Shown here one piece after another: positions 7,615 to 36,198 of a stretch of DNA of 36,198 nt. Under the pieces are notes generated by a model. The model was not told the origin of the DNA, searched no databases, and saw only the letters and a program-made list of their open reading frames with translations. Position 1 is the first letter of the stretch, and every line of letters starts with the position of its first letter. The position numbers were made by a program, and so were the translations under genes. The DNA is from Flammeovirgaceae bacterium UBA4465 (GTDB lineage: Bacteria > Bacteroidota > Bacteroidia > Cytophagales > Cyclobacteriaceae). The DNA is taken from NCBI GenBank assembly GCA_905182655.1, contig CAJJCN010000015.1, positions 1 through 36,198 on the forward strand, written 5' to 3'.

Positions 7615-8796
7615 TCAATAGCAAAAGATATTTTCGGCCTGAATGCCTTTTTCTAATGCAATTAAGTATTGTTCACAAGCCAAGGTGGGCGCATCAAGCA
7701 ATAGATGGGCTTGGGCATTGATCAGATGTGCATCTCCTTTTTCTGGCCATACACGTAGATTCCACTTGGTTGCTTTCAAGGCTTGACTTGGATTATCGGT
7801 ATTCAGATAGGCCTTGGCAAGTCCATTGTAGAGGCGGTAATGACTTTCAGGTAAATCGGCACTTTTCAATAAGATGGCATAGGCTTTGCCATAAAAAGAC
7901 TCATAATATTTTTGGGCATAGGTATTGGCCGTTTCATAATAAATTAAAGCGCTTTTGGAATCTTCCATGAGATCAGCATAAATTTCTGCCAACTCTACAT
8001 AGGTATATACCGTTCGATGCCCTAGGAGCAATATTTTCTCAAGTGATCGGATGGCTGCCGCACCTTGTAAAGTAGCTCGATAGGATTGAGCCTGCCAATT
8101 GAGTAATTTAATTTCATTGAAAGGGGTATATTTTTCGAGTAAATTAAAATGGGCCAAGGCCTTTTGATGGGAACCTTCTTGATGATATTGGGTCACTTGG
8201 GCGACCAGTTCAGAAAATATTTTGATTTCAAATCGTTCCATATCTTTTTCATAAGGAAGGAGATATCCTTTCAATTCACTTAATTGAGATAAGGCGGCAT
8301 CCCATTGCCCATCGGCATGAAACGCGGTGGCTTGGTAGAAAATAGATTTTCTTAATTCTAGTTTTTCAAAGAACAATTTTTCGTTGTAGGCATCTCGTGC
8401 ACCGACGAAACTAACGACCAACAAGGCAATGATGAATACAAAACCAAAGGCATATAGGGTTGATTTTCTATTTGCCTTCCAATCGATTTCCGTTTTAACA
8501 TAGGATCGAAAAGGTCTTGTTGTGGATTGATATTTATAGGGTTTACGCCGTTTTTTTTGAGTATTGGGTGTATATGAAACCGTTTGGGGAGTAATACTAA
8601 AGTCATAATCTGCTCGAGATTGAGGCTGGCCCAAAACTTGATAGGCGGTATTAATTCTTTTAAAAATCTCCTCTTTATCTGGATCGCCATCATTTTTATC
8701 TGGATGATACTGGAGCGCCTTTTTTTTAAAGGCGGTTTTAATCGCTTGGCTACTTGCCGTTTTGGAGACACCTAAGAGATCATATAGCGTGATCAT
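7615..8796 (-). CDS. Membrane-anchored J-domain protein with TPR-like repeats
   Basis: A 393-residue protein with an N-terminal J domain (residues 1-66) that keeps the HPD motif (31-33), which stimulates the ATPase of Hsp70/DnaK. A basic Pro-rich linker and one membrane helix (about 113-135, [17 protein letters not shown]) follow. The C-terminal 250 residues have repeating helical segments with TPR character ([48 protein letters not shown]). No DnaJ zinc finger or substrate-binding domain is present. It is likely a specialised co-chaperone recruiting DnaK to the membrane. It is the last gene of an acpH-crcB-dnaJ-like run, 18 bases after crcB. Confidence 0.87.
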
Positions 8797-31934: not shown

Positions 31935-34625
31935 ATGAAAAAGTTATTAGTTGTATTGGGTTTATTATTAGTCGGTTTACTTGGGCTTCTTGTTGCGGTC
32001 CCCATAATTTTCAAGGAGGATGCTAAAAAAGCGGTTGATGATGCCATTGCCGCGCAAGTAAACGCACATGTTTTTTATGATCAAGGGGGATTCAGTCTTT
32101 CTTTATTTGAAAATTTCCCAAACTTCACTTTTTCCATGAAAGATTTTGGGGTATCCGGTATCGATGCTTTTGCATCGGACACCTTGATTCAAGTGGCCTC
32201 TTTTGAAATCATTCTTGACCTATTATCGGTAATATCTGGAGAACAAATAATGATTAATGAAATTAGCTTGAAGGCACCTCAGATTACTATTTTATCCCTC
32301 TCTGAGGGACAAAACAATTATGATATTTTTAAAGAAACGACCGTTGAAACCCCTTCAGAAACCCCTACTGAAGAGGCGTCAACCTTCAGTTTAGCAATAA
32401 AAAAATGGCAAATTATCGATGGAAATTTCACGTATGACGATCCTTCAAATGGGATTCATACGACACTTATCGGTATTAATCACACAGGTTCTGGAGACTT
32501 TTCGCAAGACATTTTTGATCTAATGACTAAGACAAACATCGCTTCGGTGGGCCTAAATTATGAAGGTACAAATTACCTCAATAACAAGTCATTCGATGCA
32601 GACGTCAATATGAAGATGAATTTAATAGAGTCAAAATATACATTCAGTGAAAATACATTGAAGCTGGGTGCATTGGGTGTAGGTTTGAATGGACATGTGA
32701 TGCTTCCCCTTGATGCGGATATGTTGATAGATATTCAATTTCAATCGCTGGACATGTCTATTAAATCCGTCCTTTCTCTTTTGCCTGGTGATTATTCATC
32801 TTATTTGGAAAATGTAAGTGCTGACGGCGAGGTAGGTATAGAAGGTAAGGTAAGTGGCGTCTATAACGAATCGAGGTTACCGGATATAAATATCAACGCC
32901 TTGATATCCAATGGCTATTTGGCTTATGAAGAATATCCCGTACCCATTGAGGAGATTCAATTGGAAGCTTCTTTAGTCGTACCGGGGGTCAATATGGATT
33001 TAATGTCTTTTTCAATGCCTCGCTTTTCCATGCGGGTAGAGGGCCAAGATTTCCAGGCAAAAATGGATTTTAAAAATTTAGCGAATTATACTTGGGATTT
33101 AAATGCCAGTGGGGGACTTGATCTAGGAAAAATATTTCAGATCATACCTGTTGAAGGAATGGACCTCAAAGGATTCATCTCGGGAAATTTTACGACCTCC
33201 GGTAATATGCTTTTGATAGAGGAAGAAAAGTATGAACAACTTCCTACCACAGGTCGGGTACAGGTAACTGATTTCAGCTTGGCCAATGAAACACTCCCAG
33301 TGGATATCATGATCCCAGAAGCAGATTTGAGTTTTGATAATCAGCAAATCGCCTTGACTCAATTTAAGGTCTTTTTCGGTGAAAGCGATCTCCAAATGAC
33401 AGGTACTTTAGAAAATTTCATAGGTTATGCGTTGGATCCTACGGAGGTATTGCATGGCAAATTAAATTTCAGTGCTCAAACATTAAACTTTAACCCTTTC
33501 CTCTCACCGACCGATACTTCAGTAACGGATGCTGCAGTAGATACTGCAGAACTTGAAATAATAAGAATTCCTATCAACGTCGAGGTAGCATTGAACACCA
33601 AGATAGGGCAGCTGCTATATGACAACTTGGAGTTTAAGGATATGGATGGTATGATCACGATGAGTGAAGGCATTGCCCAGTTGGACAATTTAGATTTTGA
33701 CCTTTTACAAGGGGGCTTTTTGATGAGTGGATTTTATAATTCCAATCCCCAGCTGCCCCTATTTAACTTTAATTTTAAGATATCCTCCATGTCTATAAAA
33801 GAGACTTTTTCGTCATTTAATACCATTCAGGAGATGGCTCCCGTTGCCAAGGACTTAGAAGGTGTTTTTTCAACTGAATTCGTAACTGACGGGACATTAG
33901 ATACCGCCATGATGCCGGTCATGGAATCCTTATCTGTGTATGGTCTCATAGACATGAGAGCTGCCACCTATAGCAATCCCAAATTCATTAAAGGATTGAA
34001 TAAAATAACAGGAGATCAAGAAGAGAAGTTGAAACTTCAAGATATTAATTTTGAATATGCCATTGAAGACGGGAACTTAATCATCCAGCCTTTCGATTTG
34101 AACATAGGGGGAAGGACTACGACTATTTATGGGACAAGTGGGATTTCAAGTGCCCAAGCGAATATGGATTATACCCTGGAGACCGATCTTAAAACAGGTG
34201 ATCTGGGGGCAACCGCCAACAATATGATTGCTTCCTTGACGGGCTTGAATGATCTGGTAGCTGAAGAGGTGAGGATGAAAATTAAGATTGAAGGAAACTA
34301 TGAAGATCCTCAATTTCGTTTGGATGGAATTTCTAATAGTAAAAAAGGTTCCGGTGATAAGAAAATCAAAGATTTAGCCAAAGAGCGGGCAAAAAACAAA
34401 CTCAAAGAGCAGCAAAAATTAGCCGAAAAGAAGATTCAAGAAGAACTAGATAAGCAAAAGGCTGTTTTGAAGGCAGAAGCTGATAAGAAAGCAGCTGCAC
34501 TCAAGTTAGAAGCCGAAAAAAAGGTAGAAGATATAAAGGAAGAGGCCAAAGAAGTATTGACCGATCAGATCAAATCAAAATTAGGAGGGAAGCTCAAAAA
34601 ACTCAAAAAGAAAGATGGAGATTAA
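31935..34625 (+). CDS. AsmA-family envelope protein
   Basis: An 896-residue protein of the AsmA-like superfamily, which bridges or shapes the cell envelope and is implicated in lipid transport and outer-membrane assembly. One N-terminal membrane anchor (about 4-25) is followed by a very long beta-rich periplasmic region with repeated VxxxxxF-type strands (residues 50-800), the repeating-beta-groove pattern of AsmA/TamB-like proteins. Family signals include FENFPNFTFSMKDF and a C-terminal TGDLGATANNMIASL-like block. Residues about 815-896 are Lys/Glu/Ala-rich and probably coiled-coil, an unusual tail that could lie in the periplasm. Function is inferred from family only. Confidence 0.87.
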   Translation: MKKLLVVLGLLLVGLLGLLVAVPIIFKEDAKKAVDDAIAAQVNAHVFYDQGGFSLSLFENFPNFTFSMKDFGVSGIDAFASDTLIQVASFEIILDLLSVISGEQIMINEISLKAPQITILSLSEGQNNYDIFKETTVETPSETPTEEASTFSLAIKKWQIIDGNFTYDDPSNGIHTTLIGINHTGSGDFSQDIFDLMTKTNIASVGLNYEGTNYLNNKSFDADVNMKMNLIESKYTFSENTLKLGALGVGLNGHVMLPLDADMLIDIQFQSLDMSIKSVLSLLPGDYSSYLENVSADGEVGIEGKVSGVYNESRLPDININALISNGYLAYEEYPVPIEEIQLEASLVVPGVNMDLMSFSMPRFSMRVEGQDFQAKMDFKNLANYTWDLNASGGLDLGKIFQIIPVEGMDLKGFISGNFTTSGNMLLIEEEKYEQLPTTGRVQVTDFSLANETLPVDIMIPEADLSFDNQQIALTQFKVFFGESDLQMTGTLENFIGYALDPTEVLHGKLNFSAQTLNFNPFLSPTDTSVTDAAVDTAELEIIRIPINVEVALNTKIGQLLYDNLEFKDMDGMITMSEGIAQLDNLDFDLLQGGFLMSGFYNSNPQLPLFNFNFKISSMSIKETFSSFNTIQEMAPVAKDLEGVFSTEFVTDGTLDTAMMPVMESLSVYGLIDMRAATYSNPKFIKGLNKITGDQEEKLKLQDINFEYAIEDGNLIIQPFDLNIGGRTTTIYGTSGISSAQANMDYTLETDLKTGDLGATANNMIASLTGLNDLVAEEVRMKIKIEGNYEDPQFRLDGISNSKKGSGDKKIKDLAKERAKNKLKEQQKLAEKKIQEELDKQKAVLKAEADKKAAALKLEAEKKVEDIKEEAKEVLTDQIKSKLGGKLKKLKKKDGD

Positions 34626-35007
34626 AAAAAGTCTGTATTGATCTGAATGTTTTAGGTACATGTCATGTATCAATAAGCTTTTCGTTCTAATCAAGAAAAG
34701 GAATAACTAATCAAGATTATGTCATCAGCATTATTTATTTTGAGACTTAGGAAAATAGGCTTAATTTCATTGAAATCGAATACTAAGAAATGAAGTAGTA
34801 TAAAACCTTGAGCACTTAATGCAAATTTCATTTTTGAATCACTGTTGGATTTATTTTGTCGGAGCCTTACTTCACAACCTCCGGAATGATTATAATCTTG
34901 AATAATTGAATCTGAATATTCCCATCGTTTATGGGGACAAATATTTTATAAATGGTTTGTGAAACTTACATGAATAATGTAGGTTTGCTGCCAAATCGAA
35001 CATACAG
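34626..35007. other. Gene-free spacer with several short hairpins
   Basis: Between the AsmA gene and the riboswitch I see no convincing coding region (longest open frames about 24 codons). It holds short palindromes: TACATG-T-CATGTA (34657-34669, inside TATTGAT...ATCAATA arms), CCCAT-CGTTT-ATGGG (34921-34935) and TACAT-GAATA-ATGTA (34967-34981). No T-runs mark a clear terminator. The region may carry the AsmA transcript end and the riboswitch promoter. Confidence 0.5.
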
Positions 35008-35102
35008 CTCGATTTATTAAGAAGTGCTTAGAGACAGGCTCGATGATGCGCTAGCAACCCCCCTACGAAGAGGTAGGTGCTAATTCCTGACAAATAAATG
35101 AG
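35008..35102 (+). promoter_or_regulatory. SAM riboswitch aptamer, SAM-I clan (P4 apparently absent)
   Basis: The conserved core of a SAM-I-type aptamer is present: GAGACAGGCTCGATGATGC, GCTAGCAACC and AGGTGCTAATTCC. Stems can be drawn: P1 CTCgATTTATT (35008-35018) with AATAAATGAG (35093-35102); P2 GTGC/GCGC (35024-35027/35048-35051) with GAG-ACAGG-CTC (35031-35041) and the kink-turn GATGAT; P3 TAGCA/TGCTA (35052-35056/35078-35082) and CCTAC/GTAGG (35062-35066/35073-35077). In standard SAM-I aptamers a P4 hairpin follows AAUUCC; here only about ten bases separate this block from P1. The aptamer binds S-adenosylmethionine and normally lowers expression of sulfur/methionine genes. The next recognisable genes are the YeeE/YedE pair. 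Confidence 0.85.
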
Positions 35103-35108
35103 ATGCTT

Positions 35109-35246
35109 ATGATAACTGCGAAAAGCCTTAGTACCCAAGCAATATTGGATGGGATTCATTCCAATTACTGCAACTCCTTTCACACCGACTTTACTTGCCT
35201 AAGTTACTGTGATGCTTCGCATACTTTTTCGAATATTCAACAATAA
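35109..35246 (+). CDS. Candidate short reading frame after the riboswitch
   Basis: ATG 35109 opens a frame of 45 codons to TAA 35244-35246, beginning seven bases after riboswitch P1. The predicted peptide has three cysteines in a YCN...TCLSYCD segment and no membrane helix or known motif. A frame of this length could occur by chance, so this is only a candidate small protein or regulatory leader peptide. No Shine-Dalgarno site is visible. Confidence 0.2.
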   Translation: MITAKSLSTQAILDGIHSNYCNSFHTDFTCLSYCDASHTFSNIQQ

Positions 35247-35265
35247 TATTTTTTAAACTATCCTA

Positions 35266-35285
35266 AACCCTCACTGGTGTGGGTT
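35266..35285 (+). repeat. Hairpin-forming inverted repeat before the yeeE-like gene
   Basis: AACCC-T-CAC-TG-GTG-T-GGGTT is a near-perfect inverted repeat (one T/T mismatch) that ends 59 bases before the TTG start. No T-run follows, so it is not a clear terminator; it might be an operator or part of the riboswitch expression platform. Confidence 0.4.
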
Positions 35286-35344
35286 ATCCAAAGAAGATGT
35301 TATTCATTTTAATTTATCAATATTTTTACTTTTAAATTCAAATT

Positions 35345-35896
35345 TTGGAACAAATATTAGAGGTTATACAAAATCCATGGCCATGGTATGTCTCTGGGCC
35401 CATGCTGGGTATGACCGTTCCCATATTATTACTCTCTAGCAATAAACAATTTGGAGTTTCTTCCGTTTTTAGACACGTGGGATGTGCGCTGAATTGGAAA
35501 AAAATTGAATACTTTAATTATGATTTAAAAAATCACATTTGGAACCTATTGTTTATCCTCGGACTTATTTTCTCTGCTGTTTTTTTACTGCAATGGGTTG
35601 AAGTAAAACAAGGAGTTTTAAGTGATGCGGCTCAATTATATCTCAAATCAAGGTCTATTTTGATTGAGGGTATATTGCCCATATCGAGTTTTAAATGGAC
35701 TTTTGGGAATGAAATACTTATGATTGCCTTTGGTGGATTATGTATTGGATTTGGTTCGAGATATGCCAACGGATGTACATCAGGCCATGCCATTACAGGA
35801 TTATCATTACTTAGTTTAGGCTCCTTGATTGCAGTTATTGGATTTTTCATAGGTGGAGTTTTGGGCACATTTCTCATTTTAGATTCGATTTTATGA
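35345..35896 (+). CDS. YeeE/YedE-family sulfur transporter, N-terminal half protein
   Basis: A 183-residue membrane protein of the YeeE/YedE (DUF395) family, related to TsuA thiosulfate importers. It has four to five hydrophobic helices and the family cysteine motif GSRYANGCTSGHAITGL with Cys144. The protein corresponds to one half of the full-length YeeE; the other half is the next gene. The start is TTG, since the family N terminus (QILEVIQNPWPWYVSGPMLG) begins there and no nearby ATG fits. The stop overlaps the next start by four bases (ATGA). It is 242 bases downstream of a SAM riboswitch, which suggests control by SAM or methionine status. Confidence 0.88.
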   Translation: MEQILEVIQNPWPWYVSGPMLGMTVPILLLSSNKQFGVSSVFRHVGCALNWKKIEYFNYDLKNHIWNLLFILGLIFSAVFLLQWVEVKQGVLSDAAQLYLKSRSILIEGILPISSFKWTFGNEILMIAFGGLCIGFGSRYANGCTSGHAITGLSLLSLGSLIAVIGFFIGGVLGTFLILDSIL

Positions 35897-36198
35897 AGTG
35901 GATTAAATTTGTCATAGCGGGGTTTTATTTTGGTTTTGTTTTAATAAAATCTGAAGCCATTTCTTGGTATAGAATTGTAGAAATGTTTCATTTTCAATCA
36001 TTTCATATGTTTGGGATTATCGGTTCGGCGGTGGGTGTTGGCACCATTTCGGTGCTTGTTATAAAAAAGTTAAACCAATCAGTTTTCAAGACGCAGCCAA
36101 TCGATTTAACAAAAAAGCCTTTTCAATTAAAAGCCCATTTGTTGGGTGGACTTATTTTTGGATTAGGATGGTCTTTGGTGGGTGCTTGTCCAGGTCCA
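35893..36198 (+). CDS. YeeE/YedE-like (DUF6691) protein, partial at window end
   Basis: The frame from ATG 35893 to the window end gives 102 residues and no stop. It has hydrophobic segments (VIAGFYFGFVL, FGIIGSAVGVGTISVLVI, HLLGGLIFGLGWSLVGAC) and ends on GACPGP, the conserved Cys motif of the DUF6691/YedE second half (Cys99). This is the partner of the upstream half protein, coupled by a 4-base overlap. Conserved cysteines of this transporter group relay sulfur in thiosulfate uptake. The C-terminal part lies beyond the window; rhodanese or persulfide dioxygenase genes are often neighbours, but none can be seen. Confidence 0.88.
   Translation, partial: MKWIKFVIAGFYFGFVLIKSEAISWYRIVEMFHFQSFHMFGIIGSAVGVGTISVLVIKKLNQSVFKTQPIDLTKKPFQLKAHLLGGLIFGLGWSLVGACPGP

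Follow-up and report, generated by a model that had tools for sequence, protein, structure and literature searches.

Descriptions of riboswitches and of leader-peptide attenuators usually treat the two as alternatives, and regulation at the RNA level is less studied in Bacteroidota. The described systems closest to the locus considered here include the SAM-I riboswitches (S-box, RF00162), whose translational members carry the ribosome site within the 3′ side of P1 (PMC2258182), and short leader ORFs rich in cysteine codons, namely the poly-cysteine leader peptides of the cys operons of Actinobacteria, proposed as ribosome-mediated attenuators with no conserved terminator found (PMC1262725), and uORFC-8-2 before cysS in Rhodobacterales, a Cys-codon ORF for which a ribosome-mediated attenuator has also been proposed (PMC8632094). 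An interplay between a B12 riboswitch and a uORF is described for metE and ppe2 of M. tuberculosis (PMC11260477). As for sulfur transport, the YeeE family includes thiosulfate transporters (PMC11073785, PMC11582611), and YeeD is an essential partner for the thiosulfate uptake mediated by YeeE (PMC11073785).

The DNA analysed here, referred to as the window, is 36,198 nt long and corresponds to one whole contig (C15) of the genome of Flammeovirgaceae bacterium UBA4465 (G000). The original prediction had placed, close to its end, a SAM riboswitch ahead of a split YeeE/YedE sulfur transporter, and this arrangement was confirmed: the RF00162 element is followed by two gene halves matching PF04143 and PF20398, in which the motifs GCTSGH and GACPGP are present. 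Compared with the SAM-I class, the element has the same core, helices P1–P3 and pseudoknot, and matches the full-length model above the gathering score, but helix P4 is absent, a translated-looking leader ORF follows, and the literature searched yielded no description of a target operon containing yeeE. With the leaders of Actinobacteria (PMC1262725) and Rhodobacterales (PMC8632094) the locus shares a short Cys-codon ORF 5′ of sulfur or cysteine genes, whereas here the ORF comes directly after a SAM aptamer, in Bacteroidota, and a conserved terminator was not found. The likeness to the B12 leaders of M. tuberculosis (PMC11260477) is that riboswitch ligand state and a short translated ORF would jointly set expression; the ligand differs, and the abstract of that work does not present the uORF as an amino-acid sensor. 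Finally, the transporter belongs to the same Sulf_transp family (PF04143) as YeeE/TsuA with its YeeD/TsuB (PMC11073785) and has cysteines equivalent to Cys91 and Cys293, but it is encoded by two genes with the halves reversed, Cys22 is lacking, and no YeeD/TusA protein was found in the genus. Our search, conducted mostly outside subscription journals, found no literature in which a SAM riboswitch is connected to YeeE or to a Cys leader peptide, and an earlier description is possible. We regard it as rather probable that the 5′ part of a sulfur operon repressed by SAM lies in the window, the whole operon being made of a P4-less SAM-I aptamer, a short Cys leader ORF, yeeE, yedE and then a metZ-like gene, with a leader duplicated from metY.

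Promoter and Aptamer

Just 5′ of the aptamer, on the + strand, lies a promoter of the Bacteroidota type (34956–34987), composed of TTTG (34956), 20 nt and TAGGTTTG (34980–34987), a perfect match to the form TTTG-N20-TAnnTTTG. The full motif, TTTG-N17-22-TAnnTTTG, occurs at two sites only on the + strand of the window, the other being at position 7885, and an identical layout is found 5′ of the metY leaders. The aptamer itself (35011–35100, + strand) was recognised by cmscan with 64.9 bits against a gathering score of 44.4 (E 4.5e-13, model positions 1–108) and is the sole Rfam match across the whole window. P1 is formed by 35011–35018 paired with 35093–35100, and both the core and the pseudoknot, in which CAGG of the P2 loop (35035–35038) pairs with CCTG of J3-4 (35086–35089), are intact. 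The columns of helix P4 are deleted in the Rfam alignment, and the window aptamer is thus, on this alignment, a SAM-I variant without the P4 of RF00162 that still lies above the cut-off of the family.

The helix is also missing in the other elements of the genus and in many elements of metY and of a second family of the order (f2); the P4-less form, 90–98 nt long, stands before metY in about 12 other genomes of the family, and occurs in the second family as well. Across 37 P4-less sequences the structure was paired in 95.8% of cells, with both-sided changes at 11 pairs, P1 included, and compensatory changes in P1, P2a and P3. The two outermost P1 pairs showed 17 cells each with both-sided changes, largely split between the two families. 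The covariation score exceeded all 500 shuffles and clearly exceeded the slid controls, in an alignment that had been fitted to the structure. For genome scans, a covariance model with a hand-written structure (R2), tuned to the P4-less aptamers, was preferred to an earlier one (R1, RNAalifold structure with 14 pairs) of poor quality.

Between the aptamer and the TTG start of yeeE we measured 244 nt, against the 242 bases originally counted, and this gap carries the leader ORF. Such a distance could suggest that yeeE is transcribed from a promoter of its own and that the aptamer belongs to a terminated small RNA. A separate promoter in this interval, with no read-through, had been named in advance as the observation that would count against riboswitch control; no TAnnTTTG box was found between 35100 and 35345, nor any terminator-like hairpin, and the gap is a leader of the metY type, the metY leaders being likewise about 200–250 nt long, so that transcription of yeeE independent of the aptamer appears highly improbable. 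More generally, no intrinsic terminator or conserved switch was detected between the aptamer and yeeE, and the fold of the whole leader was no better than that of shuffled sequences. An antisense ORF over the spacer (92 aa in the relative G002) was dismissed as a chance occurrence, having no credible Pfam match and being broken in the window.

Transporter Genes and Substrate

The first half of the transporter, yeeE, occupies 35345–35896 on the + strand and encodes 183 aa with a Sulf_transp match (PF04143, E 2.7e-14); the Cys codon of its GCTSGH motif is at 35774–35776, and its start codon is TTG in the window and ATG in the relatives. The second half, yedE/DUF6691, runs on the same strand from 35893 to the contig end at 36198, being still open after 102 aa, and matches PF20398 (E 5.6e-8) and PF04143; the Cys codon of GACPGP is at 36187–36189. 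Since half 1 aligns to residues 273–322 of the solved StYeeE, with its Cys144 at the position of Cys293, while the G002 orthologue of half 2 aligns to residues 6–119, with its Cys99 at the position of Cys91, the gene order of the two halves is reversed with respect to StYeeE. Among the conserved StYeeE cysteines 22, 91 and 293, the last two are present and Cys22 is replaced by Ile. The TsuA equivalog model scored far below its cut-off (26–30 vs 400 bits).

These observations bear on the model originally put forward, that is, a plain SAM-gated uptake of thiosulfate through YeeE/YedE with no input from a leader peptide. Its regulatory part is supported, at the level of an operon for sulfur transport under SAM control, by the synteny in 6 of 10 genus genomes and by a perfect promoter 5′ of the aptamer with none between aptamer and yeeE. 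The substrate is another matter: the family to which YeeE belongs does include thiosulfate transporters (PMC11073785, PMC11582611), and two of the three StYeeE cysteines are kept, yet YeeD is essential in the known system (PMC11073785), and no protein of the TusA/YeeD family (PF01206) was found in the 10 genus genomes, while 11 of 14 control genomes were positive. Because this partner was not found and one of the three transport cysteines has no counterpart, thiosulfate as the substrate is unproven; considering also that the operon carries metZ and that the spacer holds a leader ORF derived from metY, we judge the plain thiosulfate model very unlikely. With a metZ-like gene in the operon, the sensible reading is that the transporter brings in some reduced sulfur species from which homocysteine synthesis is supplied.

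The Operon in the Genus

The prediction had described the yeeE halves as the first recognisable genes downstream and the target as something other than a methionine gene. The halves are indeed there, but the wording reflects a truncation, because the second half is cut by the end of the window, itself a whole contig. In G002, the one relative with an intact copy, the order is SAM element, yeeE, DUF6691, a 391-aa PLP enzyme and a CBS protein, and the best NCBIfam models for the PLP enzyme are those of O-succinylhomoserine sulfhydrylase (502 and 488 bits); as these scores are slightly under the cut-offs (522 and 510), we call it metZ-like. Since the G002 operon runs into this gene, the locus appears to be a methionine operon after all, contrary to what had been proposed, and a metZ-like O-succinylhomoserine sulfhydrylase very probably lies past the contig end of the window.

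The G000 genome is 81.5% complete, and its assembly lacks about 3 kb past the contig end, the next contig (C58) resuming in the gene after the CBS region. A loss of metZ in G000 was considered and set aside: the adjacent CBS gene, kept in 5/5 relatives with the locus, is also absent from the assembly, and C58 starts about 3 kb further on, so that metZ is to be regarded as unassembled. When positions 31935–36198 were compared with G002 (L033), nucleotide identity was about 0.80–0.92 up to 35434 and then 0.94, 0.96 and 0.98 at the contig end; the rise starts within yeeE and would fit the beginning of a recombination tract or of a mixed assembly.

A comparison across relatives had been set beforehand as a check, with missing synteny as the outcome that would speak against the prediction. 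Within the genus this outcome did not occur: a SAM element before yeeE, or before its remnants, was found in 6 of 10 genus genomes (G000, G001, G002, G006, G008 and G009). The association was absent at the YeeE loci scanned outside the genus. Several of these copies are broken: in G001 yeeE is interrupted by two TGA codons, and in G006 and G008 by frameshifts as well as stops; metZ, too, contains stops in these three genomes, and G009 has lost metZ and retains only remnants of yeeE. The promoter is intact in G000 (TAGGTTTG) and G002 (TAAGTTTG), whereas the −7 box is changed to TAAGTTTA in G001 and G008, to GAGGTTTA in G006 and to TAAGTTGG in G009, and the mutated boxes coincide exactly with the four relatives with broken genes. 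The aptamer of G008 has a mismatch in the pseudoknot, and that of G009, the lowest-scoring of the yeeE copies (51.4 bits), carries an insertion as well as a deletion within P3/J3-4. Also in G009, a DUF748-type gene 5′ of the locus (L037:4462-7141) is frameshifted, while intact in relatives, by real decay or by assembly indels. The genus thus shows in fine detail the decay of an operon jointly with that of its promoter and riboswitch.

As four relatives have lost genes, the copy in the window may be dying too, and one could suppose that it is already non-functional, or nearly so, and that its riboswitch is a relic as in the relatives. Together with the damage to yeeE and metZ (stops, frameshifts or deletions) and the mutated −7 boxes of G001, G006, G008 and G009, the TTG start and the diverged leader ORF of the window would fit such a state. 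On the contrary, the reading frames of yeeE and of as much of yedE as the window contains are uninterrupted, and the dN/dS values to G002, 0.15 for yeeE and 0.13 for the DUF6691 part, indicate that this copy has been under constraint; moreover, the −7 box, the aptamer core and the pseudoknot are intact, and we consider a relic in the window unlikely. In the same way, the alternative of an orphan riboswitch left behind by a lost met gene, offered with the original prediction, found no support for the window, while G008 and G009 come near to it. We return, for the window, to the reading of a SAM-repressed sulfur operon.

Other loci of the genus were inspected. A yeeE/DUF6691 pair of G004 (L027/L042:7708-8682) was set apart as a different locus, being 45% identical, with no SAM element and with unrelated neighbours; the same genome has a metZ-like gene (L167:7560-8723; 61% identical) that lies near neither a yeeE nor a detected SAM element. 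In G002 (L044:7061-11163), L040 and L041, methionine synthase appears to be split behind another SAM element into a 332-aa homocysteine-methyltransferase half (MetH models), a 145-aa QueF-like (preQ1 synthase) gene and an 883-aa ORF that looks like the remainder of MetH.

Outside the genus, the R2 scan detected no SAM element near YeeE at 103 other loci (0/78 in the contig collection and 0/25 elsewhere in the family), and Rfam scans of about 35 of these loci gave the same result. On this evidence the link between riboswitch and yeeE is restricted to one genus. SAM elements directly 5′ of a metZ homologue were observed in other genera (L256, L264).

Leader ORFs with Cysteine Clusters

The leader ORF of the window (35103–35246, + strand) encodes 47 aa (MLMITAKSLSTQAILDGIHSNYCNSFHTDFTCLSYCDASHTFSNIQQ), with three scattered Cys and no Cys run; the G002 and G001 versions end with FTCISCCDI followed by the stop. 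It is homologous to the leader ORF of metY (39% over 36 aa, E 0.025, tblastn). Its nominal dN/dS to G002 is 0.26, a coding signal that is weak because the differences, 5, 5 and 7 at the three codon positions, show no third-position excess. In our reading it derives from the metY leader ORF and has since decayed. As the Cys run is eroded to three separate codons, cysteine sensing at the yeeE locus is doubtful and could be weakened or gone, leaving SAM control in place.

The yeeE leader of G002 is 77–81% identical to the metY leaders of the genus over about 185 nt, comprising the promoter, the aptamer and the first ~20 nt beyond. This similarity indicates that the stretch from the yeeE promoter through the aptamer to the start of the leader ORF was copied from the metY leader found elsewhere in the same genome; metY is the likely donor because its leaders carry such aptamers widely across the family. 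In the genus, a metY leader with a SAM element could be read in 8 genomes; the ORF begins 2–8 nt past the aptamer, and most versions end in a Cys cluster (e.g. MIIIQNLKFQLYFDVVASRIDSSFFVALLSCCCCRHDGMRLARIHTQLY). In other genera of the family, 20 of 24 leaders, nearly all before metY, had an ORF ending in a Cys cluster, as in ...TGCCCCCC, ...SLCCMCCCC and ...NRDCCC, where dinucleotide shuffles would give 0.4 (P ~3e-33), and the 21 SAM leaders that stand before other genes, metH, metX and metZ among them, had none (Fisher 5e-9). The second family gave 18 of 19 leaders with a Cys-cluster ORF, mostly with a GTG start, against 3.2 expected from shuffles (P 1e-14), and ...MMCCCCCCMPFGA precedes metY in G507, a single genome from a third family. 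In both the metY and the second-family leaders, the short ORF with Cys codons clustered near the stop stands 5′ of a sulfur gene.

The genes behind the leaders of the second family include those for PAPS reductase (cysH), an amino-acid permease and a RimK-like ATP-grasp protein, and the elements before these three genes represent a candidate SAM plus cysteine regulon. Up to 5–6 P4-less SAM plus poly-Cys elements per genome were observed in this family (L266–L287).

As to the function of the runs, the TGT/TGC repeats might act as RNA, or the peptide might be a metal-binding microprotein, rather than a cysteine sensor that stalls ribosomes. This could be argued from the fact that our search found no universal attenuator hairpin downstream and that no leader-peptide family matched the Cys ORFs. 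Nevertheless, runs of at least three Cys codons were in frame with the leader start in 31 of 31 cases tested (18/18 and 13/13), they use both TGT and TGC codons and include Met (CCMCC, CMCCC), the frame is kept across the different start codons (ATG, GTG) of the two families, and the runs occur at sulfur genes, all of which makes a role as RNA or microprotein quite unlikely. Behind the leader ORFs of metY, no terminator shared across the family was found; within the genus, these leaders contain CTACTGAG/CTCAGTAG and AGTAGTG/CACTACT, which can form competing hairpins 3′ of the ORF.

A Possible Two-Input Regulator

Because the 3′ strand of P1 abuts the start of the leader ORF, SAM binding could limit the translation of the leader: with SAM bound, P1 would close, leader translation would be limited and the operon would be off, whereas at low SAM ribosomes would translate the leader. 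In leaders of the metY type, a scarcity of Cys-tRNA would then stall the ribosome on the Cys run and the transcript would continue. Candidates for the readout are alternative hairpins, Rho or reinitiation; as no terminator is common to the family, Rho or reinitiation would be equally likely.

In Cytophagales, the P4-less SAM-I aptamer and the poly-Cys leader peptide could form a composite regulator with two inputs, in which SAM, via P1, gates the translation of the leader and cysteine supply gates the passage of the Cys run; it would govern metY, cysH, transporters and, by duplication, yeeE-yedE-metZ. We give this proposal an even chance of being correct. While the yeeE operon appears as a genus-level curiosity in decay, the source of its leader points to a widespread composite SAM plus cysteine element. 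If this is true, SAM, as the end product, and cysteine, as the sulfur supply, would act in series as a natural two-input RNA gate in the sulfur metabolism of Bacteroidota.
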